Notes under the pieces: model-generated
Told to the model about the DNA's origin: nothing
Database searches by the model: none
Seen by the model: the letters and a program-made list of their open reading frames with translations, nothing else
IMG/VR virus record: IMGVR_UViG_3300047510_001118
Coordinates: 62,001 to 126,000 of that record
Reading direction: 5' to 3' (one strand)
Source: a virus
DNA length: 64,000 bases
Shown: positions 32,828 through 57,518 of the stretch, in pieces
How positions within the stretch are numbered: the first letter of the stretch is position 1
Layout: each line of letters begins with the position of its first letter
Made by a program: the position numbers and the translations under genes

Positions 32828-32856
32828 TTGACAAATTCTGTGAATGGTCATATAAT
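32828..32856 (+). promoter_or_regulatory. sigma70 promoter heading the rightward early block
   Basis: TTGACA 32828-32833 and TATAAT 32851-32856, 17-base spacer. It diverges from the leftward late box at 32805 and marks the switch of gene direction. Confidence 0.82.
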
Positions 32857-32888
32857 AATAACATCATAAACACACAGACACTAGATCA

Positions 32889-33083
32889 ATGCGCCCAATT
32901 TTGGTATTATTAACTGCTGTTATTTTAACTGGTTGTGCTTCTACAGAATGGATGACTGTGGATAACTGTAGTTATGGTTATCGACCAGAGGATCCAAAAA
33001 TTCGCTGTGGTGAAAAATGGGATCAAGTACATCGACATCCGTTTGATGCTCAAATTCGTAGAGCTCGAGGAGAACAATGGTGA
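32889..33083 (+). CDS. small lipoprotein (64 aa)
   Basis: Residues 1-16 form a lipoprotein signal with lipobox LTGC (Cys-16), so it should be lipidated and placed in the envelope. The mature part has two more Cys and ends in a basic helix. First gene of the plus-strand early block. Candidates are superinfection exclusion or spanin-like roles, but there is no specific evidence. Confidence 0.82.
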   Translation: MRPILVLLTAVILTGCASTEWMTVDNCSYGYRPEDPKIRCGEKWDQVHRHPFDAQIRRARGEQW

Positions 33084-33424
33084 AGCTCAAAGTCTACAAT
33101 ACAATGTATGAACGCAGGACTTCATACTTCTTTGAAATACCTGAATTCAATTACTATGAAGGCGATGAAGTTAAAGTCAAATGGGTAAAACCTGAAGAGA
33201 TTGCTCTGAGTACAGGACTCAAAGACTTTTCATTTCGTGTCATACAAAGAAAATACATTAGAGAAATAGATGGTAAGCCTTATTCATTTGAAGTCAAGGA
33301 TAAGAAAGAAGAAGTTCGATTGGTACAGGGCAGTAATGGCAAGGTATACGAAGTAACCAGTCATAGTTGTACTTGTCCGGGGTTCACGTTTAGAGGTTCA
33401 TGTAAACATATAGGAGTTAAATGA
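33077..33424 (+). CDS. SWIM zinc-finger protein (115 aa)
   Basis: Cys-98-x-Cys-100-x8-Cys-109-x-His-111 (CTCPGFTFRGSCKH) is a classic SWIM zinc finger, known to bind DNA or protein. The N-terminal 90 residues are beta-rich and charged. It overlaps its neighbours by 7 and 4 bases. Confidence 0.85.
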   Translation: MVKLKVYNTMYERRTSYFFEIPEFNYYEGDEVKVKWVKPEEIALSTGLKDFSFRVIQRKYIREIDGKPYSFEVKDKKEEVRLVQGSNGKVYEVTSHSCTCPGFTFRGSCKHIGVK

Positions 33425-33666
33425 TGACTGAAGTTTTATTTGCGTTAATGCTAGTGTCTAAGACACCAAATTTTCCTGACCAACAAGTGGCTGTGTTTGC
33501 CAGTCGATCCGAATGTGTTAAAGAAGCACAGGCCATCATACAACAAGGACCTAGTGCCTATTGTGTTCCTGTTAACCAACAACCCAGTCCTGAAGAAGCA
33601 ATTAAAAGAATGACTGCTTTAATGAAAACTATGATGAAGGAAATGGAAAATGGGAACCGTAATTGA
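33421..33666 (+). CDS. small phage protein (81 aa)
   Basis: Hydrophobic N-terminus (TEVLFALMLVS) followed by a CVKEAQAI...YCVPV segment with two cysteines that could form a disulfide if exported, then a Met/Lys-rich helix. Unknown function. Confidence 0.75.
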   Translation: MMTEVLFALMLVSKTPNFPDQQVAVFASRSECVKEAQAIIQQGPSAYCVPVNQQPSPEEAIKRMTALMKTMMKEMENGNRN

Positions 33667-34006
33667 TTTTGAAAAGGAACGCGATCTCCGATATATGGGG
33701 ATGGAGATTCCTGAACATACCAAAGACAGTCTAGATCGTTATTTCGTTAATGGATTACGTCCAGGAGGCTTCTGTGAAGCCATGCTGGCACAGGATTACG
33801 ATCGAGCTCTTACTATAGCAGACACAGCCAATCGACAGATGTTTTGGGCTATTGCTACTTGGATTAGAGAAAATGCTCCGTTGGGCAGTGCTGGCAATTA
33901 CTCTATTATCGATGACTGGATTAAAGATAAAAACTCAGTTCGTTCAACCTTTGCTCGTCGAGCAGAAAAAGATTACACATGGCGAAGTCTAAAAAACGTG
34001 GACTAG
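33650..34006 (+). CDS. conserved phage protein with GGF-x-A-x-L motif (118 aa)
   Basis: RPGGFCEAMLAQDYDRALTIAD with N and W residues afterwards matches a widespread small phage protein family I recall (GGFLxAVLxNDLxxAxxxAD). Function unknown. Overlaps both neighbours. Confidence 0.8.
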   Translation: MGTVIDFEKERDLRYMGMEIPEHTKDSLDRYFVNGLRPGGFCEAMLAQDYDRALTIADTANRQMFWAIATWIRENAPLGSAGNYSIIDDWIKDKNSVRSTFARRAEKDYTWRSLKNVD

Positions 34007-34317
34007 GTTATTATCTAGCATATTTTGATAGCCTAGGATTTGAAACTATAATTGATCTCAGTGCCTACGAAAAGGATCTTACCTGGGCGGCACTTAAAGG
34101 TGAACAACCAAAAATGAAATTGCCTGTAGGAATGTTAATCATGCGAGCCAAAGCCAATCCACAACGATTTCCAGAGATTTGGACATTTCAATCAGAGGTT
34201 GACATAAAGACATTAAGACAGTATAGTATTGACTCGCCGCAGGGCCTGGCTGACTTGATACGTGAGCACGGATCTAAGGTATTTGTGACTCTTAGAGAAA
34301 AGGAAGTAATTCAATGA
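33979..34317 (+). CDS. phage protein of unknown function (112 aa)
   Basis: Basic start MAKSKKRG, then a soluble mixed fold ending VTLREKEV. No motif. Overlaps the previous gene by 28 bases and the next by four. Confidence 0.75.
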   Translation: MAKSKKRGLGYYLAYFDSLGFETIIDLSAYEKDLTWAALKGEQPKMKLPVGMLIMRAKANPQRFPEIWTFQSEVDIKTLRQYSIDSPQGLADLIREHGSKVFVTLREKEVIQ

Positions 34318-34934
34318 TCACACTAAAAGAATATATGGAGTTGGTGAACTACAGAATCACCGAAGGTAGTAACTACTGCTGGGACTGCTATGGCAATGAT
34401 GCTTATAGATTGGACAGTTGGAATCAAGATCAAAATGGACACACTGTCAGCATTGTGTTTGATACTAGAACTCAAACAGTCTACGAAGCAAGTGCCTATG
34501 ACTACAGTCGTAATCGTGCTTACAGATTGATCAATCCAGAATTCAAACATTATCATGACCAAGAAGCAGAAGTGCGGGGCATAGATGCCAATGAAGCATG
34601 GGATGATGTCAAATATATTGATTTGGATGTGGACGATGACTTTATCCAAAAAGCATTGGCCATTGTTGCTGGTGAAGATTATGATGATCGTGTAAAAGTT
34701 CCTATTGAACTTACAGATGAAGAACTACTGGAATACATGAAACTGGCACATGAGCGTGATATTACTTTCAATCAATTAGTTGAAGAAGCACTACGACATG
34801 CCATTGACGATTTACAACGTGATCCTGAAGGCATGAAAGCAAGAGCCGAACAATGGAAGTCTGTTCATGTGTCTAACACAGACAATCCTATAGATTTTCC
34901 TGTACCAAAAAAGAAAAGAAAAGGTAAGAAATGA
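34314..34934 (+). CDS. conserved T4-like phage protein (206 aa)
   Basis: The N-terminal half (EYMELVNYRITEGSNYCWDCYG, VFDTRTQTVYEASAYDY, NRAYRLI) is a pattern I recall from marine T4-like phages. The C-terminal part has a helix pair like a ribbon-helix-helix or short coiled coil (ERDITFNQLVEEAL) and a basic tail KKKRKGKK. Function unknown. Confidence 0.83.
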   Translation: MITLKEYMELVNYRITEGSNYCWDCYGNDAYRLDSWNQDQNGHTVSIVFDTRTQTVYEASAYDYSRNRAYRLINPEFKHYHDQEAEVRGIDANEAWDDVKYIDLDVDDDFIQKALAIVAGEDYDDRVKVPIELTDEELLEYMKLAHERDITFNQLVEEALRHAIDDLQRDPEGMKARAEQWKSVHVSNTDNPIDFPVPKKKRKGKK

Positions 34935-35149
34935 TTACTAAACTATTAAAACCGCAACCAAATTTTTCTTATCCATTAATGCGAGATCCTAAGCGTAATC
35001 CCAAATGTTATGAAATGACCGACGAAGAACGTAAAGAAGCAACTCAACGAGTAGAAAAAATCTTGGCTAATAAAAAGTCAGAACCTTATTTTGTCAATGA
35101 GTCCGGTCTTAAAATTAGTGCTGTTACCGGAGAATTAGTTAATGACTAA
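34931..35149 (+). CDS. small phage protein (72 aa)
   Basis: Charged, with ends resembling NESGLKISAVTGELVND. Four-base overlap with the previous gene. Unknown function. Confidence 0.75.
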   Translation: MITKLLKPQPNFSYPLMRDPKRNPKCYEMTDEERKEATQRVEKILANKKSEPYFVNESGLKISAVTGELVND

Positions 35150-35264
35150 GATTAGAATAGCCCTTGCTCGTTGGATATTGGGTAAACATTGTCCTTGCTA
35201 CAAAATGGGCTATCATAATCTCTGTGACTATAGAAAACACAGAATCGGAAACAAAAATATTTAA
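35142..35264 (+). CDS. small basic protein (40 aa)
   Basis: ATG 35142 overlaps the previous stop. The 40 residues are very basic, with two Cys pairs (HCPC, LCDYRKHR), possibly a zinc knuckle. No clear Shine-Dalgarno, so expression may depend on coupling. Confidence 0.6.
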   Translation: MTKIRIALARWILGKHCPCYKMGYHNLCDYRKHRIGNKNI

Positions 35265-35290
35265 TTATCTCAAAAAGAAAGGGCACTAAT

Positions 35291-35551
35291 TTGTCAATAA
35301 ACGAAAACGAAGCATTTGAATATAACAATGAAGAAGAAGCCGAAATGGCTCAACTTCATAGTATCCATTTACATTTGAACGCAATTGGTAAAGTTCAAGA
35401 ACAGTTAGCCAAACAGCGTAGTCAACCTAGTTTAGAAGAGTGCGAAGACTGCGGAGAAGAAATTCCCAAAGCACGGCAAGAAGCACAGCCAGGTGTAACT
35501 CGCTGTATCTACTGCCAAGAAAAATTTGAACGTAAACAACGAGGCCTATGA
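35291..35551 (+). CDS. DksA/TraR-type zinc-finger protein (86 aa)
   Basis: Cys 51, 54, 72, 75 in CEDCGEEIPKAR ... CIYCQEKFER is the DksA/TraR C4 signature. TraR-like phage proteins bind the secondary channel of RNA polymerase and alter promoter choice; the size fits. A TTG start at 35291 is needed; the next ATG (35345) would cut the acidic N-terminal helix that reaches the active site. Confidence 0.82.
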   Translation: MSINENEAFEYNNEEEAEMAQLHSIHLHLNAIGKVQEQLAKQRSQPSLEECEDCGEEIPKARQEAQPGVTRCIYCQEKFERKQRGL

Positions 35552-36030
35552 AAAAACAAACCATATTCTACAAAAAAGCAGGACGTAGATATGTTCCCGT
35601 GTCAGAATATGACAGCGAGTATTGTGATAGTTACCCCAAAGGCAGTCATCTTGTAGTATCAAAACCTGGATCGACTATGCGTATGTTTAATATTGATCCT
35701 GCCCTGGCTCCTATGGTTGCCGCAGGAACTTACGCCTTAGATGAAATCAGCGATAAAATTAGACAGGCCACAGAACTGCGCCCAGTTAATAGAGAAATGA
35801 CTGAAGAAGATAATCGTCGTTGGAAAGAGTTTATTAAGACCATGCCCGACGACATGCGGTTCATGATGACACACGGGTCAGCACGTGATGCTGCCGAAGC
35901 CGGTGTCAAAGCCATGACCAAAGAAGTAGAAAAACTTATGTCCAACCCGGCAGTGCGTAAAGCCTATGAAAGGTTTATGTTTGTCTGCCAACTTACTAAA
36001 GAAAGTGAGCGTAGTAAAAATGAGCAGTGA
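35548..36030 (+). CDS. conserved phage protein (160 aa)
   Basis: KKAGRRYVPVSEYDSE and GSHLVVSKPGSTMRMFNIDP at the start, helices after residue 75. I recall relatives in many T4-like phages; no known function. Four-base overlap with the DksA-like gene. Confidence 0.8.
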   Translation: MKKQTIFYKKAGRRYVPVSEYDSEYCDSYPKGSHLVVSKPGSTMRMFNIDPALAPMVAAGTYALDEISDKIRQATELRPVNREMTEEDNRRWKEFIKTMPDDMRFMMTHGSARDAAEAGVKAMTKEVEKLMSNPAVRKAYERFMFVCQLTKESERSKNEQ

Positions 36031-36316
36031 ATTATTATGTAAAGATTGTAAACATAGTTTTAGAACCATCTCTAGTATTATAACACACGGCTTTAACAGT
36101 GAGTATGCTTACCAGTGCCGAAAAAGTTTTAAAGAAACGCATATTGAACCTAATCCTGTTGTAGGATCTAAAAAGGTACTAGCCAAATACGATTCCTGCG
36201 GTGTTACCCGAATTGGTCGTCCAGACAGAGATGATCGATGTGGTGAATTAGGTAAGTGGTGGGAACCCAAGAGCAAAAAGTTTTTGTTCCTACAGATTAA
36301 ACACAGTGAACAATGA
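36020..36316 (+). CDS. small Cys-containing protein, tandem family member (98 aa)
   Basis: Started at ATG 36020 (SELLCKDCKHSF), not the longer frame. CxxC, then paired Cys further on, suggest a zinc ribbon. It ends KKFLFLQIKHSE, the same F-x-L-x-(K/R)-type end as the next genes. Confidence 0.76.
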   Translation: MSSELLCKDCKHSFRTISSIITHGFNSEYAYQCRKSFKETHIEPNPVVGSKKVLAKYDSCGVTRIGRPDRDDRCGELGKWWEPKSKKFLFLQIKHSEQ

Positions 36317-36585
36317 GTCGTAAAAGACAGATCGCCGAAATGGTTGCCGAGGATATGGCCAAGGATATGTCCGCGGCCATTGACTTTGAAGTCCTAGCAG
36401 GTATGTTAGTGGAACTTGGTTGGATCAGAGTTGACCTTATCTATACTCCTCCCGAACGTGCCTGGTATAAGATAAAAGATTGGGTTGATCAAAACTGTCA
36501 AGGGCATCATGAAGAACACATGGGAACATGGGTGTTTGAAAAGCAACAAGATGCCAATTGGTTTGTGCTAAGGTGGGGAAACTAA
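36313..36585 (+). CDS. small protein, tandem family member (90 aa)
   Basis: Helical N-terminus; a W-x3-DWVDQNC segment and an end WFVLRWGN. These two blocks recur in the neighbours, so duplication is likely. Four-base overlap upstream and TAATG downstream. Confidence 0.76.
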   Translation: MSRKRQIAEMVAEDMAKDMSAAIDFEVLAGMLVELGWIRVDLIYTPPERAWYKIKDWVDQNCQGHHEEHMGTWVFEKQQDANWFVLRWGN

Positions 36586-36881
36586 TGTCCTTGAAATTAG
36601 AATTTGACATTGACAAAGGTTACACAAACATTGTAACAAGGCAGGTATTGATACTCGAAGACTATCTCTGTCAACCAGTTATATCCTGGTGCCATGAAAG
36701 GATTGGACCAATGCTGTGGCCCAAAGACGTCAATGAAATACTTAGAGGCGACGGTTGGGAGATATCAGCAGACTGGAACACATGGATATACGATCATGAT
36801 AAAAAGCCTAGGACCAGTGTTATAATTCACAAAGACATAGACCCGCAACTGATTACAGAATTTTGGATGAGGTTTCAATAA
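36585..36881 (+). CDS. small protein, tandem family member (98 aa)
   Basis: ATG 36585 shares a base with the preceding TAA. Residues ISWCHERIGPMLWP and the end LITEFWMRFQ mirror the aromatic end of its neighbours. Function unknown. Confidence 0.76.
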   Translation: MSLKLEFDIDKGYTNIVTRQVLILEDYLCQPVISWCHERIGPMLWPKDVNEILRGDGWEISADWNTWIYDHDKKPRTSVIIHKDIDPQLITEFWMRFQ

Positions 36882-37195
36882 TGCCACGTAAAAAGAAAAC
36901 AGTCAACACACAGACAGTGAATACAGCAGTCACTAATCCCAGTGCTATTTTTAACAACATCACACTGCCCGCTCCATCAGGCGAAGATAAAAAAGGTCCT
37001 AAGATTGAAACCTGTGAAGTTGGTATGTTTAGACTTCCCGGAGTGAAACTGGATTTAGAACAGTTCACAGAAGACCAAATTAATGAAATGCGTAGTTGGG
37101 CCAAAGACAATGGCGCATACACTGATCCCGGCAATGGACTTTTCAGTTGGAAGGATCCTGCTAAACGTGATTGGTTTATACTCAAATGGAGTTAA
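36881..37195 (+). CDS. small protein, tandem family member (104 aa)
   Basis: Again TAATG coupling (ATG 36881). Basic N-terminus MPRKKKT, Ser/Thr/Pro linker, then a MRSWAKDNGAY...RDWFILKWS domain like the others. It ends at an internal TAATG as well, but the next frame is better from GTG 37200. Confidence 0.76.
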   Translation: MPRKKKTVNTQTVNTAVTNPSAIFNNITLPAPSGEDKKGPKIETCEVGMFRLPGVKLDLEQFTEDQINEMRSWAKDNGAYTDPGNGLFSWKDPAKRDWFILKWS

Positions 37196-37199
37196 TGTT

Positions 37200-37439
37200 G
37201 TGGGCACATCTAAAGAAGAACGTGATAGATACTTTAATTCTATTCGCAGAATGCGGCGTGAATATATCGAAGAGCACAAAGGTATCTATGATCTAACTGC
37301 TAGGCCCACGGTACATCATTGGGCAGAAAAGAAATACGGATTTGCCATGGCACTGGATGGCACTGGTAATTACACAGCCGATTATACTGTAACCAATCCA
37401 AAGAAGTTTATGTTGTTTCAAATAAAGTATTGGAAATGA
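37200..37439 (+). CDS. small protein, tandem family member (79 aa), GTG start
   Basis: The coding frame from GTG 37200 gives EERDRYFNSIRRMRREY, W and G rich middle and an end KKFMLFQIKYWK that matches the family. An ATG at 37195 in another frame gives only 33 residues and no family match. Confidence 0.68.
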   Translation: MGTSKEERDRYFNSIRRMRREYIEEHKGIYDLTARPTVHHWAEKKYGFAMALDGTGNYTADYTVTNPKKFMLFQIKYWK

Positions 37440-37445
37440 AATAAT

Positions 37446-37475
37446 TTGACAAAAACAACACAGTGACAGTATAAT
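37446..37475 (+). promoter_or_regulatory. sigma70 promoter
   Basis: TTGACA 37446-37451, TATAAT 37470-37475, 18-base spacer; serves the gene at 37506 with a 24-base leader carrying AGGAGTGAG. Confidence 0.8.
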
Positions 37476-37505
37476 GCTATTAAATACACACACAGGAGTG
37501 AGATT

Positions 37506-37940
37506 ATGGACATACTAGGATTTTTGATTCAAGTGGCTTTATTTTATGCTGTTTTTAAATTAGGTCAGTGGAGTATCCTAGTACCTATGAAATTAACACT
37601 TGCGAAATTGGCAAAAGAAAAAGGTATTGATCTTGAAAAGGTATTAGAAGAACTAAGATCTGAACAAGAAGATGAAGTAACAGAAGTAAGTAAGCAAGAA
37701 GAATTTCTAGATATTGAACGAGTAGACGGAGTTTATTTTGCCTATGGCGATCAGGGCAGATTCCTAGCACAGGGCGCAGACTTCCGATCTATGTTTGAAA
37801 ACGTCAAACAGCGATTTCCTGGAAAGAGTTTTCGTGTCAATAACTACAATGCTAATCTCACAGAAGAAGAAGCAGGTCGTTTAGTCAAGGCTGTTTTTGA
37901 AACTTTTGGAGGAAATAATGACGCAGGTAGAACAAGGTAG
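37506..37940 (+). CDS. membrane-anchored phage protein (144 aa)
   Basis: One N-terminal membrane span (residues 4-28, LGFLIQVALFYAVF), then a cytoplasmic acidic helix and a small alpha/beta domain (VYFAYGDQGRFLAQG). Ribosome site GGAGTGAG. Unknown function. Confidence 0.8.
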   Translation: MDILGFLIQVALFYAVFKLGQWSILVPMKLTLAKLAKEKGIDLEKVLEELRSEQEDEVTEVSKQEEFLDIERVDGVYFAYGDQGRFLAQGADFRSMFENVKQRFPGKSFRVNNYNANLTEEEAGRLVKAVFETFGGNNDAGRTR

Positions 37941-38121
37941 TCGTTGGTACGGCAACACTAGAGATTTTTATCACGTGCTCAGCGTGGTCGAAATAAACGG
38001 ACAGACTTGGGTACACTATCGTAGAGAAAATCCCTCTTCTGAAACACACAATGTAGAATTCAGTTGTTACTTAGAAAGTTTTCTTAGTAGGTTCTCTAGA
38101 TATGAAAACACCAGTCGTTAA
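37918..38121 (+). CDS. small phage protein (67 aa)
   Basis: ATG 37918 preceded by GGAGGAAATA. Strand-rich (GSRWYGNTRDFYHVLSV, GQTWVHYRRE) and reminiscent of a small SH3-like fold. Overlaps the previous gene by 23 bases. Confidence 0.75.
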   Translation: MTQVEQGSRWYGNTRDFYHVLSVVEINGQTWVHYRRENPSSETHNVEFSCYLESFLSRFSRYENTSR

Positions 38122-38278
38122 GAATTTTAGAACCTGGGCACAGGAAATATGGTTCCAAAACTGTGAGGAACACGACTTATACTATCTGCCCAGATATACA
38201 CAACAAGAGTATTTTCATCAGTATAAATGGTGGCTTCGAGCTCGTTATCAACAGCTCAAACGCCAAGGGCTAGTATGA
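38102..38278 (+). CDS. small basic protein (58 aa)
   Basis: Aromatic and basic (W x 5, Y x 6, WWLRARYQQLKRQGL tail), probably one long helix at the end. It is coupled on both sides by overlapping codons (ATGA with the next). Unknown function. Confidence 0.68.
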   Translation: MKTPVVKNFRTWAQEIWFQNCEEHDLYYLPRYTQQEYFHQYKWWLRARYQQLKRQGLV

Positions 38279-39087: not shown

Positions 39088-39089
39088 GG

Positions 39090-39118
39090 TTGACAGCCCA
39101 GGTCTAGTATTGTATAAT
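39090..39118 (+). promoter_or_regulatory. sigma70 promoter, leaderless
   Basis: TTGACA 39090-39095, TATAAT 39113-39118, 17-base spacer. ATG 39125 starts after a six-base gap. Confidence 0.83.
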
Positions 39119-39124
39119 ACTAGC

Positions 39125-39808
39125 ATGAGTAAACAATTTCACCAAGCCCTCAAGACTATACTTGACATGCCCTACTATAAGAACGACCAAGCTCGTTCTG
39201 GGGCCACAGACGCAGGACACGAACAGGCCGTGGCCGACAGAGTTGAATCCGCAGGATTCACAGCAGTGTCCAAAGCACAACACCCAAAACTGACCAAAAG
39301 CCTACTGCGTCGATGGGCAGAGGGTGGCAGCGATCAAGACCTACGTCGAGCCACAGAAGGCATGCCTCCGGGTTCATTTATTGTACAGCCCGCAGGATCA
39401 CAGGGCTTTCCAGATATCCTAGTTCGAGACTTCAACGACAGATTCATAGCCCTTGAATGTAAAAGCGGTAAAAATGGACAGTGTCCCATGTGGAATGACA
39501 ACACTCCCAAACCCATGGCTATCTATGTGCTGAGTTCGGGCGTACAGAACAGCACCACAGTGTTCATGGGTCGTGATGTGATCACAGCAGAAGAACAGAG
39601 CCTAATGGATGAGCTACAGACCAAACTCACAGCCATAGTCAAAGAGTATGCTGTGAAGTTAACCAAAGTAGATCGTTTTAACAGGGGTTGGATACAAAAG
39701 GCACGTAAACAACATTTTCAAGGCGGGGGCTCGGAAAAGACTAATTACTTTACACACAGCCAACGATCAATCTGCGAAAAGAATGCCCTAGACTATGCCC
39801 AACAGTAA
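39125..39808 (+). CDS. PD-(D/E)xK nuclease, likely restriction endonuclease
   Basis: GFPDILVRDFNDRFIALECKSGK gives Asp-97 and Glu-111-x-Lys-113, the PD-(D/E)xK core. 227 aa is normal for a small type II restriction enzyme, and the next gene, overlapping by 14 bases, is a DNA methyltransferase, so a complete R-M pair is likely. Holliday-junction or replication-linked nucleases are the alternative. Note the leaderless promoter: ATG 39125 begins on the predicted +1. Confidence 0.8.
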   Translation: MSKQFHQALKTILDMPYYKNDQARSGATDAGHEQAVADRVESAGFTAVSKAQHPKLTKSLLRRWAEGGSDQDLRRATEGMPPGSFIVQPAGSQGFPDILVRDFNDRFIALECKSGKNGQCPMWNDNTPKPMAIYVLSSGVQNSTTVFMGRDVITAEEQSLMDELQTKLTAIVKEYAVKLTKVDRFNRGWIQKARKQHFQGGGSEKTNYFTHSQRSICEKNALDYAQQ

Positions 39809-42491: not shown

Positions 42492-42520
42492 TTGACCCCG
42501 CTGCACTGATCTAGTATAAT
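42492..42520 (+). promoter_or_regulatory. sigma70 promoter, leaderless
   Basis: TTGACC 42492-42497, TATAAT 42515-42520, 17-base spacer, then six bases to ATG 42526. Confidence 0.8.
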
Positions 42521-42525
42521 AAGGG

Positions 42526-42825
42526 ATGGACTCTAGACTTAGACAGTTTCTCTTGGGAATTTTGGCTATGTGCACAGTTGTGACCCTATGGCTGTGGGTC
42601 TCTGCCATAGAGATTGAAGAAGAGTTGATGGAACCTGAGTGGACAGTGCCGGAACGGTTCCTTAAGCCCGAAATCGCTGGCCCTAACTCAGTAGAAGATG
42701 ACGTAGACACTACAAAGATCTTAGAGCCCGAACCCCAGCATGGGTGGATAGTGCCTCCAGAACCCCTACGCAAGGCTGCGGGTAAGGTTAAACGGAAGAT
42801 CAAAAAGACTGTGAAAAAAGGGTGA
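42526..42825 (+). CDS. membrane-anchored phage protein (99 aa)
   Basis: N-terminal membrane span (residues 8-28, FLLGILAMCTVVTLWLWV), acidic Pro/Glu-rich middle and a Lys-rich C-terminus (RKAAGKVKRKIKKTVKKG). The shape, anchored with a basic tail, is like phage inhibitors or spanins, but no family is recognised. Leaderless start. Confidence 0.75.
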   Translation: MDSRLRQFLLGILAMCTVVTLWLWVSAIEIEEELMEPEWTVPERFLKPEIAGPNSVEDDVDTTKILEPEPQHGWIVPPEPLRKAAGKVKRKIKKTVKKG

Positions 42826-44158: not shown

Positions 44159-44346
44159 TGGCTCAATATGATCCGCAGGACGATCTACTGTTAGAGGACT
44201 TGGAGTATCGTAAGCAGATGGCCGTGGCCACCCTAAACGATGCCATCAATCAGATCTATAACATAGAGGGCGATCGCTGGCAAATGGCCTATGATACCCT
44301 GGAAGCCGTCATGGGTAATCTCAAGATAGAGGTTGACAACCGGTAG
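44158..44346 (+). CDS. small phage protein (62 aa)
   Basis: TAATG coupling with the previous gene. Acidic, helical. Its last codons are also the -35 and operator of the next promoter, so promoter and coding constraint overlap. Confidence 0.75.
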   Translation: MAQYDPQDDLLLEDLEYRKQMAVATLNDAINQIYNIEGDRWQMAYDTLEAVMGNLKIEVDNR

Positions 44347-44362
44347 GGACCGGTGCTATACT
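44333..44362 (+). promoter_or_regulatory. sigma70 promoter with operator in spacer
   Basis: TTGACA 44333-44338, TATACT 44357-44362, 18-base spacer with CGGTAGGGACCG (44341-44352). Overlaps the 3' end of the previous gene. Confidence 0.85.
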
Positions 44363-44391
44363 ATAGGCTAGATAGTTAAAAAGGAGCGAAG

Positions 44392-44655
44392 ATGTTTACA
44401 GTTGAAATCTACAAGAAGGATGCCCGTACTAAAGTGGGTGAGCGCATGGTCCACAAGGCAGATCATAATACCGATAACCTCTCAATGCTAGAGCACTCTG
44501 TGAAGAATACTTGGCGTGCATCACAGGGCTATCGCTACGAGATCCACGAGACCTATGTAACCCGACGGAACTTGATGGGCGGTGCGGAGTTCAAAGAACG
44601 CTATGACACGCCCTACTATTGCTCACCCAGTTCTGAATCTTATTGGAGTATGTGA
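44392..44655 (+). CDS. small phage protein (87 aa)
   Basis: Ribosome site AAGGAGCGAAG. Strand/helix mix with an aromatic end (YYCSPSSESYWSM). Unknown. Confidence 0.78.
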   Translation: MFTVEIYKKDARTKVGERMVHKADHNTDNLSMLEHSVKNTWRASQGYRYEIHETYVTRRNLMGGAEFKERYDTPYYCSPSSESYWSM

Positions 44656-45328: not shown

Positions 45329-45358
45329 TTGACAACCGGTCATGACCGGTAGTAAAGT
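45329..45358 (+). promoter_or_regulatory. sigma70 promoter with operator, leaderless
   Basis: TTGACA 45329-45334, TAAAGT 45353-45358 (18 bases), operator CGGTCATGACCG at 45337-45348. ATG 45365 follows six bases later. The only weak -10 of the set. Confidence 0.75.
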
Positions 45359-45364
45359 ATAACT

Positions 45365-45655
45365 ATGAAAGCAGTCAAACACACCGACGGAATACGCAGG
45401 ATCACCATGAAGATGGAGGTTGCTGTGGATGTTCGCCACTTGACCCTGTATGCACTGGACATGGTCAAAGGCGAGCAGTTCCCGGTGGACGTGATTTGTT
45501 CTGCTAACAAAAGGGAGATCTTTGCCCTAGCTCGAGCCAATATTCAGTCATTTGGTAAGGACACAGCAATTCAGAACGTGCCGCTGAGTCTAAACCCTGT
45601 AGAGATACAGCGAGCAATGGATCACGTTCGTAGTGTTTTTCCGGAGATTGATTAA
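45365..45655 (+). CDS. phage protein of unknown function (96 aa)
   Basis: Beta-rich start and a helical end. Leaderless start at the predicted +1. Unknown. Confidence 0.75.
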   Translation: MKAVKHTDGIRRITMKMEVAVDVRHLTLYALDMVKGEQFPVDVICSANKREIFALARANIQSFGKDTAIQNVPLSLNPVEIQRAMDHVRSVFPEID

Positions 45656-50574: not shown

Positions 50575-50604
50575 TTGACAACCGGTAGTGACCGGTGCTA
50601 TAAT
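50575..50604 (+). promoter_or_regulatory. sigma70 promoter with operator, leaderless
   Basis: TTGACA 50575-50580, TATAAT 50599-50604, 18 bases, CGGTAGTGACCG at 50583-50594. ATG 50611 starts after six bases. Confidence 0.84.
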
Positions 50605-50610
50605 ATGAAC

Positions 50611-50829
50611 ATGAACTTAGAAACTATCGCCAAACACACAGCCCTGTTCTTTACCCTAGTAGGGGCCCTATTCACAGCACTAGCCTGGGATCCCATGAAC
50701 ATCCTGTTCTTGAACTTGGGCAGTCTGCTGTATCTCTTTTGGGCCTACAGGGTTAGGGATTGGAATCTCGTAGCAGTCAATGCAGGACTGTTGACAATCT
50801 ATGTGATTGGCGCTATAATTAGACTATGA
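50611..50829 (+). CDS. small phage membrane protein (72 aa)
   Basis: Three membrane spans. ATG 50611 is preferred over 50605, which would lie within three bases of the -10. Operator-controlled. Unknown. Confidence 0.75.
   Translation: MNLETIAKHTALFFTLVGALFTALAWDPMNILFLNLGSLLYLFWAYRVRDWNLVAVNAGLLTIYVIGAIIRL
50791..50819 (+). promoter_or_regulatory. sigma70 promoter, leaderless
   Basis: TTGACA 50791-50796, TATAAT 50814-50819, 17 bases, inside the previous gene; six bases to ATG 50826. Confidence 0.8.
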
Positions 50830-50972
50830 TGAAACTTCAAGTAAAGATTCCCCAAAAGACTCGTGCACATCGTGTGCTTTGGGACAGAGACTTGCCTTTT
50901 CGTCCAAAAACGGAACAGAGCAAGACACAGTATCGCCGCAAGGCTAAACATCCTAACAAGGAGATTGCATAA
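50826..50972 (+). CDS. small basic phage protein (48 aa)
   Basis: Very basic (KIPQKTRAHRVLWDRDLPFR, YRRKAKHPNK). Likely nucleic-acid binding; unknown. Four-base overlap with the previous gene. Confidence 0.72.
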   Translation: MMKLQVKIPQKTRAHRVLWDRDLPFRPKTEQSKTQYRRKAKHPNKEIA

Positions 50973-51618: not shown

Positions 51619-51636
51619 GGTAGGGATCAAAAGCGG

Positions 51637-51665: not shown

Positions 51666-51689
51666 TTAACAAATAGTAAGGAGCGTGAG

Positions 51690-51824: not shown

Positions 51825-51949
51825 CCAGTCATATCATAGCATTCATCGCAGGTGTCGTAGTGGCCACAGTAGGTTTCACAGGCGTGGCTCAGATCGCAGA
51901 CTCAGGCATCCAGAAGGTTCAGGCAATATCAAAAGAAGCGGCTAAGTAA
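51821..51949 (+). CDS. small membrane protein (42 aa)
   Basis: One membrane span (IIAFIAGVVVATVGFTG), acidic-basic tail. Partner of the previous gene by overlap. Confidence 0.7.
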   Translation: MTSHIIAFIAGVVVATVGFTGVAQIADSGIQKVQAISKEAAK

Positions 51950-51956
51950 TCAACCT

Positions 51957-52034
51957 GGGCCTCTAGCTCATGTTGGTTAGAGCAGTGGACTCATAATCCA
52001 TTGGTGCGGAGTTCGACTCTCCGGGGGCCCACCA
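51957..52034 (+). tRNA. tRNA-Met or tRNA-Ile2 (anticodon CAT)
   Basis: Acceptor GGGCCTC/GGGGCCC, D stem GCTC/GAGC, anticodon loop CTCATAA, T arm CGGAG/CTCCG, CCA encoded at 52032-52034. CAU is elongator Met unless modified to lysidine for Ile. Confidence 0.9.
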
Positions 52035-52038
52035 GATC

Positions 52039-52123
52039 GCGACTGTGGTGAAATCGGTAGACACAAGAGACTTAAAATCTCTCGCTGCAAGGCGTGCCAG
52101 TTCGATTCTGGCCAGTCGCACCA
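52039..52123 (+). tRNA. tRNA-Leu (anticodon TAA)
   Basis: Acceptor GCGACTG/CAGTCGC, anticodon stem AGAGA/TCTCT with loop CTTAAAA, long variable arm, TTCGATT loop, CCA encoded. Confidence 0.92.
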
Positions 52124-52129
52124 AACAAT

Positions 52130-52206
52130 CTGCCCGTAGCTCAACCGGATAGAGCAACGGCCTTCTAAGCCGTAGGTTGGGGGTTCGATTCCCTCCGGGC
52201 AGGCCA
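52130..52206 (+). tRNA. tRNA-Arg (anticodon TCT)
   Basis: Acceptor CTGCCCG/CGGGCAG, D stem GCTC/GAGC, anticodon stem ACGGC/GCCGT with loop CTTCTAA, G discriminator, CCA encoded. Confidence 0.92.
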
Positions 52207-52233
52207 GTGTTGCGAAAAAACAACACATTTTTT
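52207..52233 (+). terminator. terminator of the tRNA unit
   Basis: GTGTTG, CGAAAAAA loop, CAACAC, then ATTTTTT. Starts at the base after the last CCA. Confidence 0.75.
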
Positions 52234-52235
52234 GG

Positions 52236-52264
52236 TTGACAATTTGGCTGACCCCTGCTATACT
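52236..52264 (+). promoter_or_regulatory. sigma70 promoter
   Basis: TTGACA 52236-52241, TATACT 52259-52264, 17 bases. Confidence 0.82.
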
Positions 52265-52294
52265 ATTGATACTGTGATAACGAAGGAGCGAATG

Positions 52295-52633
52295 ATGATA
52301 CTAGTAATCGACACACAATACATGGAAAACTACGGTGCCCACGATTGGGACGGCAAGGGCGAGTGCCCCCAGTACTGGAAGATGAAGGGCGGCAGTTCCT
52401 ACAAGATCACCGGCATTCCTTCCGGTGTAGACTTCCAGGCAGTCATCGAACAGGTGACCCCAGAGATCGAGCGTAGCAACGACTACTGCCGTGAATACAT
52501 CATCGGCACCCACAGTGAAGCAGATGACTACCTCTCTGAGTTTGAGAAGAGCCAACTGGACTACGAGGGTGAGATCCAGTTTCCGGAACCCACAATCCAG
52601 TACGGGTCTTTGGTTGACAAAGTCGCGGCTTGA
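52295..52633 (+). CDS. conserved phage protein (112 aa)
   Basis: MILVIDTQYMENYGAHDWDGKGECPQYWK, a marine-phage motif. ATG 52295 gives six bases after GGAG; 52292 would give three. Unknown function. Confidence 0.8.
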   Translation: MILVIDTQYMENYGAHDWDGKGECPQYWKMKGGSSYKITGIPSGVDFQAVIEQVTPEIERSNDYCREYIIGTHSEADDYLSEFEKSQLDYEGEIQFPEPTIQYGSLVDKVAA

Positions 52634-52642
52634 TCGTATACT
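52614..52642 (+). promoter_or_regulatory. sigma70 promoter
   Basis: TTGACA 52614-52619, TATACT 52637-52642, 17 bases. Confidence 0.82.
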
Positions 52643-52671
52643 ATTAAAACTGTAACTAAGGAGCGAACCAA

Positions 52672-53004
52672 ATGACAGACATCAAAACTATCGTAGATCA
52701 AGCAGTGGCCCTGGCTCAGGACGCTAGCCAGCAGTACTTCCAAAACACACTGAAAGGCCAGGATCAATTCGCCTGCGGCTTTGCCTGGGTTGATGTATAC
52801 GTAGAGCGTACCAATTCAAAAGAAGCCAAAGAGCTAATCGCTGCAGGCTTTAAGAAAGACTACAAGCCCAAGTGCTTGAGCATGTGGAACCCAGGCGGTA
52901 TCAACGTACAGAACATTGACACCAAAGAAGCGGGTGCTGATGCTATGGCTCGTTATCTACAGGCCCAGGGCTTCAAAGCCTACGCAGGCAGTCGATTAGA
53001 CTAA
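52672..53004 (+). CDS. conserved phage protein (110 aa)
   Basis: FACGFAWVDVYVERTNSKE..., PGGINVQNIDTKEAGADAMA, end AYAGSRLD; recalled as common in T4-like phages. Unknown. AAGGAGCGAACCAA precedes ATG. Confidence 0.8.
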   Translation: MTDIKTIVDQAVALAQDASQQYFQNTLKGQDQFACGFAWVDVYVERTNSKEAKELIAAGFKKDYKPKCLSMWNPGGINVQNIDTKEAGADAMARYLQAQGFKAYAGSRLD

Positions 53005-53007
53005 GTA

Positions 53008-53037
53008 TTGACAGCCCCCAGGGGGCTGTAGTATAAT
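53008..53037 (+). promoter_or_regulatory. sigma70 promoter with perfect palindrome in spacer
   Basis: TTGACA 53008-53013, TATAAT 53032-53037, 18 bases. CAGCCCCC-A-GGGGGCTG (53012-53028) fills the spacer: a third operator type. Confidence 0.8.
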
Positions 53038-53064
53038 TACATTTTTAACAGAGAAAGAGCGAAC

Positions 53065-53916
53065 ATGACTAATTTGGCAACTAAACCCGCAGGCTATCGT
53101 GTACTGAGTCTTGAGCAAGAAAGTCCTGCTCAAACACGTGAAACAGACGCAGAGATCATTGAACGCTTGCGTGAGCGTTTTGACATCCTTGATGACATGA
53201 CTCGTGCTGTAAAGAAAGGCGCTGTACGTGCAATGATCGTCAGTGGTGCTCCAGGCGTAGGTAAGAGCTTTGGTGTTGAGAAAGTTCTGGGCAAGCATGA
53301 TCTAATGGCCAATATCGCCAACGATGAAAAGCTCAAGAAGTACGAGATCGTCAAGGGTGCGATGTCAGCAATTGGCTTGTACTCAAAGCTCTATGAGTTC
53401 TCAGCAGAGAAGAACATCCTAGTGTTCGACGACTGTGACTCAGTACTGTTAGATGATCTTAGCCTTAACATTCTAAAGGCTGCTCTAGATACAAGTAAGA
53501 AGCGTACCATCCATTGGAACACTGACAGCAGACTGTTACGCAGTGAAGGTGTGCCCAATTCGTTTGAGTTCAAGGGTGGTGCTATCTTTATTACCAATAT
53601 CAACTTTCAGAACATCAAGAGCAAGAAGTTACAGGATCACTTGGCAGCTCTGGAAAGCCGTTGCCACTACATTGATCTAACCATACACACAGAGCGTGAG
53701 AAGATGTTGCGCATCAAACAGATCGTAGGCGATGGCATGCTCAACGAGTATGAGTTCTCAGAAGAGCAGACAGCAGAGCTTATTGGGTTTATTGACCTTA
53801 ACAAGAAGCGTCTACGCGAGCTGAGCCTGCGTACAGTACTAAAGACTGCAGACCTTATGCGCAGTTTCCCTGGGGACAAATGGCAGCGTGTAGCACAGAT
53901 CAGCCTAATGAAGTAA
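53065..53916 (+). CDS. AAA+ ATPase (283 aa)
   Basis: Walker A GAPGVGKS (61-68), Walker B ILVFDDCD (118-125), sensor-1 GGAIFITNINF, Arg finger-like LESRCHYIDL. Single AAA+ domain typical of a phage family whose target is unknown; a remodelling role in replication, transcription or takeover is likely. AAAGAGCGAAC precedes ATG. Confidence 0.87.
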   Translation: MTNLATKPAGYRVLSLEQESPAQTRETDAEIIERLRERFDILDDMTRAVKKGAVRAMIVSGAPGVGKSFGVEKVLGKHDLMANIANDEKLKKYEIVKGAMSAIGLYSKLYEFSAEKNILVFDDCDSVLLDDLSLNILKAALDTSKKRTIHWNTDSRLLRSEGVPNSFEFKGGAIFITNINFQNIKSKKLQDHLAALESRCHYIDLTIHTEREKMLRIKQIVGDGMLNEYEFSEEQTAELIGFIDLNKKRLRELSLRTVLKTADLMRSFPGDKWQRVAQISLMK

Positions 53917-53917
53917 C

Positions 53918-53966
53918 GCTAGTTCGCTCCTAGCCTTAGAGGATCCTTCGGGGTCCTCTTTTTTTA
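53918..53966 (+). ncRNA. candidate small RNA: anti-Shine-Dalgarno hairpin plus terminator
   Basis: GCTAG (53918-53922), loop TTCGCTC, CTAGC (53930-53934), then AGAGGATCC-TTCG-GGGTCCTCT and T-run (53938-53966). It starts one base after the AAA+ stop codon (53914-53916), so it is a 3'UTR element. Its loop is again the complement of GGAGCGAA. Confidence 0.65.
53938..53966 (+). terminator. rho-independent terminator with TTCG tetraloop
   Basis: Nine-base stem, stable TTCG loop, eight T. Ends the AAA+ unit. Confidence 0.9.
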
Positions 53967-54176
53967 TCAAAAATTTTTTCGTCGAGGAGGTTAGAAAAAA
54001 TCTTTTCGAAAAAAAATTCGGTGAGGGGTAGTAAAATAAAACTGTTGTAAAAAAACAACATAGTGGTAACAAATCACCAGGCCACCGAAAAAATACCCTA
54101 TACTTTAATTTTTTACGGTGCAGTTTTTTAAAACCAGAGTGGACCCATTCGGGCCAAGTTCCTCGCTATATACTGT

Positions 54177-54398
54177 ATGATCAGATTCCCCCAAGAAACT
54201 ATCCAAAAGATTGTTCAAACACTCGCAGCCATAACAGCCACAGGTTTTATTACCTTTACAGTAACGCACCTACATGCGCCATTGATATCCTGGCTGTTAT
54301 GGTTTACACATTGGATTGTTGCCATCCCCATAGCCTTAGGCACTGTGTTTTGGCTAGCACCCCTATACAGTCGGTGGCTTAAAAAACTGGTTGGATAA
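54177..54398 (+). CDS. DUF2798-like small membrane protein (73 aa)
   Basis: Two membrane spans, ITFTVTHLHAP between, and IPIALGTVFWLAPLY, resembling DUF2798. No good ribosome site; a TATACT ends two bases before ATG, so the start signal is odd. Confidence 0.68.
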   Translation: MIRFPQETIQKIVQTLAAITATGFITFTVTHLHAPLISWLLWFTHWIVAIPIALGTVFWLAPLYSRWLKKLVG

Positions 54399-54469
54399 GT
54401 ATATAAGTACTCCGCAAATTTTTTTTGCGGGCTATTTTTTAAAACCGGGCAGGACCCATTGGAGCAACT

Positions 54470-54748
54470 GTGGCAAAACGTAAATCTGCAACTGTAGACA
54501 TAGAAACAAACCTCCCCAACGACGACTTTTCAAAACTCACTGAAGACCAAACTCTGGATCTATTAGAACTAACGTTCACAGCACTGTGTCAACGCTTAGA
54601 GCAAGGTGGAGTAGACCCAGAACTGATCACTGGCACACTGTTTGGCATATTTGCTGATCGTATGGCTGAGCTAGGAGATCGTGAATCATTTGACTGTATG
54701 TTAGCCGAAGCCATCGAAACACCATGGCAGGACTATACTCTACACTAA
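54470..54748 (+). CDS. phage protein of unknown function (92 aa)
   Basis: GTG start at 54470, five bases after GGAG. Acidic, helical (LLELTFTALCQRLEQGG). Unknown. Confidence 0.75.
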   Translation: MAKRKSATVDIETNLPNDDFSKLTEDQTLDLLELTFTALCQRLEQGGVDPELITGTLFGIFADRMAELGDRESFDCMLAEAIETPWQDYTLH

Positions 54749-54869
54749 CGAGTTTCTGTACAGTCTTTTAATGATATTCACTATGTACTTTATGGTCATT
54801 TAGTCATATAATACTGATACATACTAATGCAATACCTAGTATGTTTTATCAACACAAAGGAGTATTATT
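54749..54869. other. short gap before pqqA
   Basis: TATAAT at 54807-54812 without a good -35 (TGTACT at 54785), then AACACAAAGGAG. Probable middle or weak promoter. Confidence 0.5.
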
Positions 54870-54941
54870 ATGTGGACCAAACCAACTGCAACTGAAATGC
54901 GTTACGGTTTTGAAGTAACCATGTACATCATGAACAGATAA
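54870..54941 (+). CDS. pqqA: PqqA, PQQ precursor peptide (23 aa)
   Basis: 23 residues, MWTKPTATEMRYGFEVTMYI plus MNR, the same length and frame as Klebsiella PqqA, with the Glu-15 and Tyr-19 (E-V-T-M-Y) that PqqE joins by a C-C bond to make pyrroloquinoline quinone. MW-K-P, R-x-G and the N-R end also fit. AAGGAG lies seven bases before ATG and a terminator follows, so it is a stand-alone expressed gene. No PqqB, C, D or E is in the window; host enzymes would have to process the peptide. Confidence 0.85.
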   Translation: MWTKPTATEMRYGFEVTMYIMNR

Positions 54942-54965
54942 TCTCTGTCACTGTGTATAAGGAAC

Positions 54966-54989
54966 AGCCCACATAATAGTGGGCTTTTT
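54966..54989 (+). terminator. rho-independent terminator after pqqA
   Basis: AGCCCAC, ATAATA loop, GTGGGCT, then five T. Confidence 0.83.
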
Positions 54990-55019
54990 CTTGGCTAAAA
55001 ATTTGTTTTTGACCGCTAC

Positions 55020-55032
55020 GCGGCTTCGCCGC
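55020..55032 (-). repeat. GCGGC-TTC-GCCGC hairpin between convergent units
   Basis: Lies within a repeated CCGCTACG pair (55013, 55029) just past the helicase stop on the minus strand. Similar to the 42308 hairpin. Not followed by a T-run on the minus strand. Confidence 0.5.
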
Positions 55033-55042
55033 TACGTGACTC

Positions 55043-56482
55043 TCAGACAGGATCACCTGTGCCAATATTACTGAGGAATTGGCGCAGTTTAGTTGAATCT
55101 GCCTGTGCCCGTATTTTGGGCAAGGGTGCGCCCTGTGTGGGATCAGTGACTTCTCCAGTTTCTGGATCTGTTGCCGTATTACTGGTGCGTTTGATCTGAT
55201 CTAATATAGCAGTACTCTTGGGTCTATAGTCTGTGTCGCCTTCTATGCCCGGATCTGTGATACGCAGTGTGTCAATGTCAAAGTCTAGATCAATCTTCAT
55301 GCCCACACCACTTGATGAGCGTGTCTTCATCAACTGTATCTGATACTTGCCACGCTCACGCATAGCACGGCTGGTAAAGATACCTATGACGTTGTCTGCT
55401 GTTTGAATTTTACTGAGTCCGCCTGAAATGTGGCTGTGATCAAACTCTACTTCTTCTACAGCCGCACGGTTTAACTGGCTGGCAGTGACAAACACACACT
55501 GTTTTTCCATGGCTAGATTTCTGAGTTCTTCACTGACAAACTTGTCCTTGACAAACAGATCTGCGGGGCTGATCTTTTTGTTTATGGGCATCATTAGATC
55601 TAGGTAGTCCACTAATAACACGTCTACTTTACGATCTGTTTTGATTTCATACTCTTTTAAGTAAGCACGTATGTCATTGGCGTTCTTGCCTGAAGCCATG
55701 TATTTGACTTGGAATGCGCCCGATTTCTTGCCAATCATCTTGACCTTCATTTCCACGCCGTCTAAATCTTTGAAAATGTCCTTGGTTGATATGCCCGTGG
55801 TCATTGAATCTACACGCATACTTACCAGTGCTTCACTGAGCTCAAAGGTCAAGTACATGACGTTCAAGCCCGCCAGGGCCCAATTAACGCCCAAGTTGGC
55901 CAAGAATAGACTTTTACCTGCGCCCGAACCGCCAGCAAAGATATTCAACTCTCCGCGATTCATTCCGCCAAATAGGCGTTTGTCCACAGTTTCCCAACCA
56001 GTCTTTACCTGTCCGTTTTTGTCTTTTAGGCCTAGTAGTCTGCCCTTGGGATCACGCCAGTAGTCTGTGCCCAGATCTTTTTGAAGTCCTATCTGTACGG
56101 CCTGTTTGATCATGTCTTCCACAGGACCATAGTTGCCTTCTTCCAGCATGTCTGCGGCTTTGAGTATGGCACGTTCTAGACCCTTGTGTCGGGTAAATGT
56201 TTCAAACTCTGTGAGCAGCCAATCATAGTGCTCGTCTTTGAGCTGTCCTGGATCTTTGAGTTCTGTTTTGGTTGCGGCCACCACCATGTCAAATGTGGGC
56301 AGAGCATTGTGTTCTGACACATAGTTGTTGATGAATTCCGCTGAGTCCTGTAGTCTGCGATCAAATAGAGTGTGATCAAAAATGCTTTGGCAGCGCACAA
56401 AAGTGGCGGCATCACTGAGCATCATTTCCAAATACAGTTTCTGTATGTCATGTCCGTAGTCTGTGTTTTGTCTTGTTGTCAT
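55043..56482 (-). CDS. 41: replicative DNA helicase, DnaB-like (T4 gp41)
   Basis: A RecA-fold helicase: Walker A GGSGAGKS at 184-191,TFELSEALVSMR, Walker B VLLVDYLDLM at 288-297, QLNRA (sensor) and HISGGLSKI. N-terminal 170 residues form the helical collar. 479 aa, like T4 gp41 (475). It unwinds the lagging-strand template 5'-3' and works with the primase encoded just upstream. Minus strand, separated by eight bases. Confidence 0.93.
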   Translation of the reverse strand: MTTRQNTDYGHDIQKLYLEMMLSDAATFVRCQSIFDHTLFDRRLQDSAEFINNYVSEHNALPTFDMVVAATKTELKDPGQLKDEHYDWLLTEFETFTRHKGLERAILKAADMLEEGNYGPVEDMIKQAVQIGLQKDLGTDYWRDPKGRLLGLKDKNGQVKTGWETVDKRLFGGMNRGELNIFAGGSGAGKSLFLANLGVNWALAGLNVMYLTFELSEALVSMRVDSMTTGISTKDIFKDLDGVEMKVKMIGKKSGAFQVKYMASGKNANDIRAYLKEYEIKTDRKVDVLLVDYLDLMMPINKKISPADLFVKDKFVSEELRNLAMEKQCVFVTASQLNRAAVEEVEFDHSHISGGLSKIQTADNVIGIFTSRAMRERGKYQIQLMKTRSSSGVGMKIDLDFDIDTLRITDPGIEGDTDYRPKSTAILDQIKRTSNTATDPETGEVTDPTQGAPLPKIRAQADSTKLRQFLSNIGTGDPV

Positions 56483-56490
56483 ATACTATA

Positions 56491-57483
56491 TTATATCTCC
56501 GAGAACCAACGTTTTGCCATTAATTTGACTTTTAATTCTGACTGCTCCCTGTGCTGATAGATCTGCTCCAAACACCAAATCTTACCATAGCGTTGAACAG
56601 CATCATGTGCGTCTTTGCAGCCTGGAAACTCAGGCAGGCTCACTGACCAACCCAATTCCAGTGCTCGTGACACTGTGCGACTGCCATCTGTGTCACGATC
56701 TGGAACCAGTATGATTTCACGATCCAATCTATTGATCAGCATGGCCTGTTTTTCCATGACGTCTGCGCCCAATATGGCCACACCGTCAATGCTGAGTGCG
56801 TCCATGGGTCCTTCAACCACTACCACAAACTGTCTGTCACCCTGCTGATCTAAATTGAACACATAGCCTGGCTTTTGATCTGAAATGTACTTGGGCTTGC
56901 CCTCTACGACCTTGCGGGCAGTATTGCCCACTATGTTGCCTTGATAACGGAATGGTATGATCACACGATCTTGATAGCCATTTAAGGGTGTCCAATAGAA
57001 GTCATCCATGGGGTCAAAGCCTCGACTGTACACATAGTCTATGACCTGATTGAACCACTCTGCCAAATCCGGGGGCAGTTGATCTAAACTGATCAACCAC
57101 TGCCTGATTGGCAAACTGCCCTGGGGCAATTCACGCTGTTCAAACGTGGGCAGAGTCACAGCGGCCAGGGCCTGCTCATCTGCTTCTATTTTCATGGCTT
57201 CAAGGCTGAGTTTGGTTATGGCATCGTCTGGTGCGCCCATCCACTGCAGCAGTTGACGCATCTTACGTGGCAAATGACGCCCTGCTACATAACTGGCTTT
57301 GTATCCACAGTTAAAGCAGTGATAACTACAGCCGTCACTGTTGCGTATAATACCGCCACGCTGACGTGTGTCTAGGGTAGTGCCGTTATGATGGCAGCAC
57401 ACAGCGTTGAACTTGGTCCAACCGCTGGGTGTCTGTTTCCGTTTTGCGGGAAGGTACGTATAGATCGCATCGACGATACTCAT
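56491..57483 (-). CDS. 61: DNA primase (T4 gp61-like)
   Basis: N-terminal zinc site Cys-29/30, His-31 and C56-x2-C59 (CFNCG), then the TOPRIM core VVVEGPMDAL with Glu-224 and PDRDTDG (261-267). 330 aa, like T4 gp61 (342). Makes RNA primers in a complex with the gp41 helicase. Promoter (57490-57518) gives a leaderless mRNA at ATG 57483. Confidence 0.93.
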   Translation of the reverse strand: MSIVDAIYTYLPAKRKQTPSGWTKFNAVCCHHNGTTLDTRQRGGIIRNSDGCSYHCFNCGYKASYVAGRHLPRKMRQLLQWMGAPDDAITKLSLEAMKIEADEQALAAVTLPTFEQRELPQGSLPIRQWLISLDQLPPDLAEWFNQVIDYVYSRGFDPMDDFYWTPLNGYQDRVIIPFRYQGNIVGNTARKVVEGKPKYISDQKPGYVFNLDQQGDRQFVVVVEGPMDALSIDGVAILGADVMEKQAMLINRLDREIILVPDRDTDGSRTVSRALELGWSVSLPEFPGCKDAHDAVQRYGKIWCLEQIYQHREQSELKVKLMAKRWFSEI

Positions 57484-57489
57484 ACATAC

Positions 57490-57518
57490 ATTTTAGTTTC
57501 TTATTCGGATTTTGTCAA
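57490..57518 (-). promoter_or_regulatory. sigma70 promoter for primase/helicase, leaderless
   Basis: On minus: TTGACA 57518-57513, TAAAAT 57495-57490, 17 bases, then six bases to ATG 57483. Sits within the 3' end of the structural gene. Confidence 0.8.

Follow-up and report, generated by a model that had tools for sequence, protein, structure and literature searches.

Promoters Set against Start Codons Point to Leaderless and Leadered Gene Classes in a Jumbo Phage

Introduction

The textbook example of a leaderless phage mRNA is that of the λ repressor gene, cI, expressed from PRM (PMC9031893). In bacteria, cellular start codons adjacent to the -10 element are known in Deinococcus-Thermus (PMC12340547), and phage transcripts are called "often leaderless" in the paper on phage AR9 (PMC5312081). 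A second relevant system is T4 late transcription, in which promoters served by the sigma factor gp55 have the element TATAAATA, spanning -13 to -6 (PMC1524935). Here we describe a stretch of 64,000 nucleotides (the window), bases 62001-126000 of the 278,126-bp virus record IMGVR_UViG_3300047510_001118, which comes from a large bacterial virus represented by environmental DNA alone. In it, sigma70 promoters and T4-type late promoters lie directly against the start codons of one set of genes, while other genes have leaders with strong Shine-Dalgarno (SD) sites. Coordinates are those of the window unless prefixed G000, which stands for the whole record; L numbers denote loci fetched from relatives. 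The distance d is the number of nucleotides between the promoter box (-10 or TAAATA) and the start codon.

The arrangement shares with the Deinococcus-type pattern a -10 element a few bases before the start codon, which gives a leaderless mRNA, and the presence of classical leadered genes alongside. It differs in belonging to a phage rather than a cell and in having a second, gp55-type promoter class. Moreover, the Deinococcus-type promoters are largely independent of a -35 element, the -10 being sufficient, whereas the sigma70 members here carry a full TTGACA at a spacing of 16-18 nt. As in the case of cI, phage genes would be translated from leaderless mRNA, but cI is a single repressor gene, whereas here the set comprises core genes of replication, packaging and structure and is conserved across a lineage. 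We found no prior account of leaderless genes in jumbo phages in the literature searched, subscription papers being outside its coverage. The first-pass annotation had called the two-class arrangement undescribed. Leaderless phage mRNAs are known singly, and the claim stands in the narrower form that no account of a conserved dual-promoter class was found.

Sigma70 Promoters and the Gap between Two Classes

Strong promoters were defined as TTGACA plus TATAAT with at most one mismatch in each and a spacer of 15-19 nt, and the weaker site at 45329 was added. The distances from promoter to gene in the window (n = 24) are bimodal: 7 are at 5-6 nt (5, 6, 6, 6, 6, 6, 6), none at 7-23 nt, and 17 at 24 nt or more (24-58 nt, mostly 24-35). 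Under a uniform distance, P is about 9e-6. All seven close -10 boxes had been claimed to lie exactly six bases before an ATG; this is so for six of them, and the promoter at 42492 has five bases. The accompanying claim that these starts lack an SD is borne out, the median anti-SD pairing being -1.2 kcal/mol, against -1.5 at random sites.

Genes with distant promoters mostly carry AAGGAGCGAA-type SD sites, nearly all of them strong AAGGAG. The leadered early genes pair with the 16S tail at a median of -7.7 kcal/mol, and the SD energies separate the two classes. One member has TTGACA-18-TATACT (44333-44391, plus strand), followed by 29 nt with AAGGAG before the ATG at 44392. The description of these genes as having long leaders and strong ribosome sites was thus right as to the sites, but the leaders are short, mostly about 18-29 nt. 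With bimodal distances and distinct SD energies, the existence of two gene classes within one phage is upheld.

The seven close promoters were read directly, and each is followed by a predicted leaderless gene. On the minus strand, TTGACA-16-TATAAT-6-ATG (29495-29528) precedes the gene of a nucleotide-sugar (UDP-glucose) dehydrogenase (UDPGDH; 28757-29494), which relatives match from residue 1. Also on this strand, TTGACA-17-TAAAAT-6-ATG (57484-57518), which overlaps the gene upstream (57493-58557) at its 3′ end, precedes the DNA primase gene (56491-57483; phrog_47). These two promoters, which run from 29528 and 57518, had earlier been listed by the last base of their -10 (29501 and 57490). 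The other five are on the plus strand. TTGACA-17-TATAAT-6-ATG (39090-39124) serves a 227-aa gene (39125-39808) with a profile match to phrog_18119, and TTGACC-17-TATAAT-5-ATG (42492-42525) a 99-aa gene (42526-42825) whose homologue at L284 likewise has TATAAT-5-ATG. TTGACA-18-TAAAGT-6-ATG (45329-45364), which has a weak -10 and a spacer filled by the palindrome ACCGGTCATGACCGGT, is followed by a 96-aa gene (45365-45655). Finally, TTGACA-18-TATAAT-6-ATG with an ACCGGT palindrome (50575-50610) precedes a 72-aa gene (50611-50829), and within the 3′ end of this gene lies TTGACA-17-TATAAT-6-ATG (50791-50825), which serves a gene of about 48 aa (50826-50969) with a weak DUF7230 match.

ACCGGT-N4-ACCGGT palindromes recur between 42848 and 50596, with 15 matches on both strands against 0.01 expected (e.g., 44339, 44864, 45335, 45953, and 50581). 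Most lie within the -35/-10 spacer of early promoters, in the leadered and leaderless classes alike, and they look like operator sites of a single repressor.

Late Boxes and a gp55-Type Sigma Factor

The same closeness is found at boxes of the T4 late type. The window has TAAATA-5-GTG (1262-1272, plus strand) before a 143-aa open reading frame (ORF) with an uncertain start at 1273, TAAATA-6-ATG (7164-7175, plus) before a polysaccharide deacetylase-like gene (7176-7784), and TAAATA-7-ATG (29562-29574, plus) before a 5-aminolevulinate synthase gene at 29575, which confirms the earlier report that these three boxes are five to seven bases from the start. Two more are on the minus strand: one (1228-1240) at d = 7 to the ATG at 1227 of a 511-aa gene and another (31181-31191) at d = 5 to the ATG at 31180 of a 139-aa ORF.

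Two of these sites are back to back: the late boxes between 1227 and 1273 serve divergent, putatively leaderless ORFs with start codons merely 45 bases apart. The aminolevulinate synthase gene (29575-30777, plus; TIGR01821, 569 bits against a cut-off of 339) is divergent from the UDPGDH gene, and the two predicted leaderless promoters share one intergenic stretch of 80 bases.

The pattern extends beyond the window to the whole record and the lineage. Among ORFs of at least 80 codons in the 278-kb record, 21 have TAAATA at d = 4-7 before the ATG, where permuted motifs predict 5.6 (P = 5e-7). Only 2 have it at d = 8-15, against 10.0 expected. An unbiased positional scan of 6-mers upstream of genes in the record ranked TAAATA with the top motifs at two distances, d = 5 and d = 7, almost all of the remaining ones being SD variants. 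The TAAATA-adjacent genes include those for the large terminase (TerL), the tail tube, a baseplate wedge subunit and virion structural proteins. The record also encodes a gp55-like late sigma factor (G000:218438-219244; phrog_234, E = 5.5e-25; phrog_12791, E = 2.1e-80), which makes TAAATA credible as a T4-type late box. Two marks of T4-type late transcription are present, namely, a TATAAATA-like box before late genes and a gp55-family sigma gene. What is shared with T4 is the core motif of TATAAATA and the homologous sigma factor, but not the position: the same method gave no late peak in T4, 121Q or PA5oct, the counts at 4-7 nt being 2 against 5.4 expected in T4 and, genome-wide, 3 against 7.1 in PA5oct.

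Where Transcription Should Start

Sigma70 promoters most often start transcription 7 bp past the -10 (PMC5730371), so that d = 6 places the A of the ATG at +1. At T4 late promoters +1 is six bases after TAAATA, and d = 5 therefore does the same. The peak distances, 6 for sigma70 and 5 for the late boxes, differ by one base, matching the start rule of each promoter type. As in bacterial leaderless genes, the promoter position would put +1 on or near the start codon, and an SD is absent.

Where TAAATA stands at d = 7 before a late gene, the fifth base that follows it is A (8/8), and these genes may therefore carry a 3-nt leader (e.g., ACU or AUU). Homologues of the 48-aa gene (L285-L294, near position 3000) have TATAAT-9-ATG with a predicted +1 at ACU or AUU, also a likely 3-nt leader, and the form A(C/U)-N-AUG is common to both groups. 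The first-pass annotation had set +1 at the A of the start codon. Its leaderless placement is backed by the comparative evidence given below; for the late class it has to be widened to a leader of 0-3 nt. As a prediction from promoter position, transcription with no leader, or with one of at most 3 nt, is well supported.

Conservation in Relatives

By primase and TerL searches, the source is a jumbo myovirus-type phage among the T4-like jumbo phages. Ranked by TerL, the closest of the named isolates are those of the PA5oct group (Arenbergviridae), with Phosso, Atu_ph07 and RaK2/121Q more distant; primase alone ranks Phosso and Atu_ph07 above PA5oct. Amino acid identity to PA5oct is 55.6% for TerL and 33.6% for primase, in a ranking by search matches rather than by a tree.

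In 34/35 distinct primase homologues, a -35, a 17-nt spacer and a -10 are followed by 5-8 nt before the conserved N-terminus. The primases of PA5oct and RAS14 look leaderless, that of PA5oct having TTGACA-17-TATAAT-6-GTG; in RaK2, 121Q, CBB, and XaC1, about 20-30 nt separate the -10 from the ATG, mostly with an AGGA-like site. A TAAGAAA element is conserved in the spacers of the primase promoter family. As a mark of leaderless promoters at large it was rejected, TTGACA-N9-TAAGAAA not being enriched in the window (7 vs. 4.0 expected).

For TerL the conservation is complete: TAAATA or TAAGTA is at d = 4-7 before the ATG in 56/56 distinct homologues (43 at 5 and 9 at 4). The box is mostly directly behind a hairpin and U-run terminator, with a median fold of -14.3 kcal/mol. 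Four lineages (the window, L189, L190-L193, and L194) share d = 6 at the 72-aa gene (50611), with diverged spacers and discriminators. A gene of about 400 aa just outside the window (G000:125763-127007) has TTGAC(A/T), TATAAT and d = 6-7 in four lineages of 24-54% identity, and the 45365 homologue at L183 keeps TTGACA-18-TAATAT-6-ATG.

In the pooled relatives, 184 cases of TAAATA are at d = 4-7 and 33 at d = 8-16; of the sigma70 boxes, 52 are at d = 6-8 and 4 at d = 9-16. TerL and primase loci are over-represented in this pool, and the record alone is therefore the cleaner test. In Stenotrophomonas phage RAS14, late ORFs such as those at 79047, 90810, 200386, and 281509 have TAAATA-5-ATG. Exact sigma70 pattern scans of relatives yield many matches with ATG at 6, and their ORFs were checked. 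Three such matches in PA5oct (12866, 65664, and 248703) were rejected as chance, since the ORFs stay open for just 3-6 codons.

The annotated starts of two PA5oct genes seem misplaced. In primase (L069 229-300), the annotated GTG lies within the discriminator, 6 nt too far upstream, and the predicted +1 is the G of the next in-frame GTG, at 145890. For PA5oct gp262, a protein already detected by mass spectrometry, +1 is predicted at 144985. In PA5oct TerL (L278 156-200), the annotated ATG is apparently in the loop of the terminator hairpin.

As to the phage itself, a nucleotide search of the phage collection gave no match to it, and a TerL search of bacterial genomes for the host gave none. 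Searching for the host with aminolevulinate synthase returned mixed metagenome-assembled genomes (Neomarinimicrobiota, Neisseriaceae, Rhodobacteraceae, and others). The window also has a cluster of three tRNA genes at 51957-52206: Met(cat), Leu(taa), and Arg(tct).

Weighing the Explanations

We consider it very probable that the phage has two translation-initiation classes, one leaderless, from sigma70 or gp55-type promoters, and one leadered, with an SD. In the first, the promoter would set +1 on, or at most 3 nt from, the A of the start codon and give an SD-less mRNA; in the second, leaders of roughly 18-29 nt would carry a strong SD. The 5′ ends of the first class, and initiation by 70S ribosomes or at a 5′-AUG, are what we infer. 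The spacing conserved in many relatives points to two built-in modes of translation initiation within a single phage.

Several points weigh against so simple a division. The 5′ ends are all predictions from sequence. Exact leaderlessness may not be general, given the d = 7 late genes and the sigma70 homologues at d = 8-9, which have possible leaders of 2-3 nt. The starts at 1273 (GTG) and 42526 appear less secure than the rest. The 39125 homologue at L177 is leadered (AGGAG, d = 20), and five 45365 homologues (L184-L188) have no promoter there. Together with the leadered primases of RaK2, 121Q, CBB, and XaC1, these orthologues imply that the leaderless state is not essential.

Start codons could be mis-assigned, so that real promoters are followed by a normal leader and translation from a downstream codon with an SD. 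Automatic gene calling did pick different starts for some genes (39167, 57240), and the 45365 gene has in-frame downstream ATGs and a GTG near AGGA or GGAGG. This is nevertheless very unlikely, because homologues of UDPGDH, primase, TerL, 39125, 45365, 50611, and 50826 align from residue 1, and no downstream alternative with an SD exists in primase, UDPGDH, or 50611. In UDPGDH, the GxGxxG Rossmann motif at residues ~6-11 begins within 10 residues of the promoter-adjacent ATG, which must therefore be the start. The distances, too, hold at 5-8 although the spacers diverge. It is also highly improbable that TAAATA before the late genes acts as an A/U-rich enhancer of translation within a longer mRNA and that chance explains part of the TATAAT-like boxes near ATG, despite the AT-richness of the genomes, the background given by permuted 6-mers and the three chance matches in PA5oct. 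The TAAATA peak is sharp, with a nearly empty zone at 8-15; a terminator and U-run stand immediately upstream of TerL; the sigma70 set has complete -35/-10 pairs; a gp55-like sigma gene is present; and T4 and 121Q have no such peak.

What the arrangement is for is more speculative. The most likely use, and we put it forward tentatively, is to tie the translation of leaderless ORFs to their own promoters. Lacking an SD, such an ORF would be poorly translated from upstream read-through RNA, and we propose that its output would therefore follow the firing of its own promoter. TerL, just behind an intrinsic terminator, may be the clearest case. A serious alternative, quite possible if short of probable, is compactness: promoters are packed against ORFs, and leaderlessness is a mere by-product with no regulatory role. 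The promoters at 50791 and 57518 do overlap the ends of upstream genes, and gene coverage is about 0.91. Yet most promoters of the same region retain leaders of 18-29 nt with an SD, and intermediate distances are absent. Economy of space is compatible with leaderlessness and competes with the promoter-tied role alone. The first-pass annotation, drawing on what is generally known of leaderless mRNA, had pointed to 70S ribosomes and stress. We think it unlikely that leaderless mRNAs here serve translation under impaired canonical initiation, by 70S monosomes in a dormant or stressed host. Leaderless mRNAs do bind 70S ribosomes directly, but the MazF form of the stress idea was not reproducible (both reviewed in PMC9031893), kasugamycin resistance in E. 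coli did not generally track leaderlessness (PMC5230787), and no stress theme is obvious in the leaderless set, which mixes genes of replication, packaging, structure and metabolism.

Implications

It is conceivable, though we advance it with reserve, that jumbo phages of a widespread environmental lineage keep their leaderless genes as a dedicated regulon under two specificities of RNA polymerase, those of host sigma70 and phage gp55. Fusion of promoter and start codon would confine the translation of replication and packaging genes to their own primary transcripts, the TerL terminator excluding read-through. On the practical side, start-codon callers that rely on the SD can misplace leaderless starts, as the primase and TerL of PA5oct exemplify. 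If the two classes are confirmed, culturable relatives would allow genes with and without leaders to be compared as a matched set, within one infection and under both types of promoter. The purpose of leaderless mRNAs would then be testable with natural controls, such as the primase orthologues, which have a leader in the RaK2/121Q branch but none in another.

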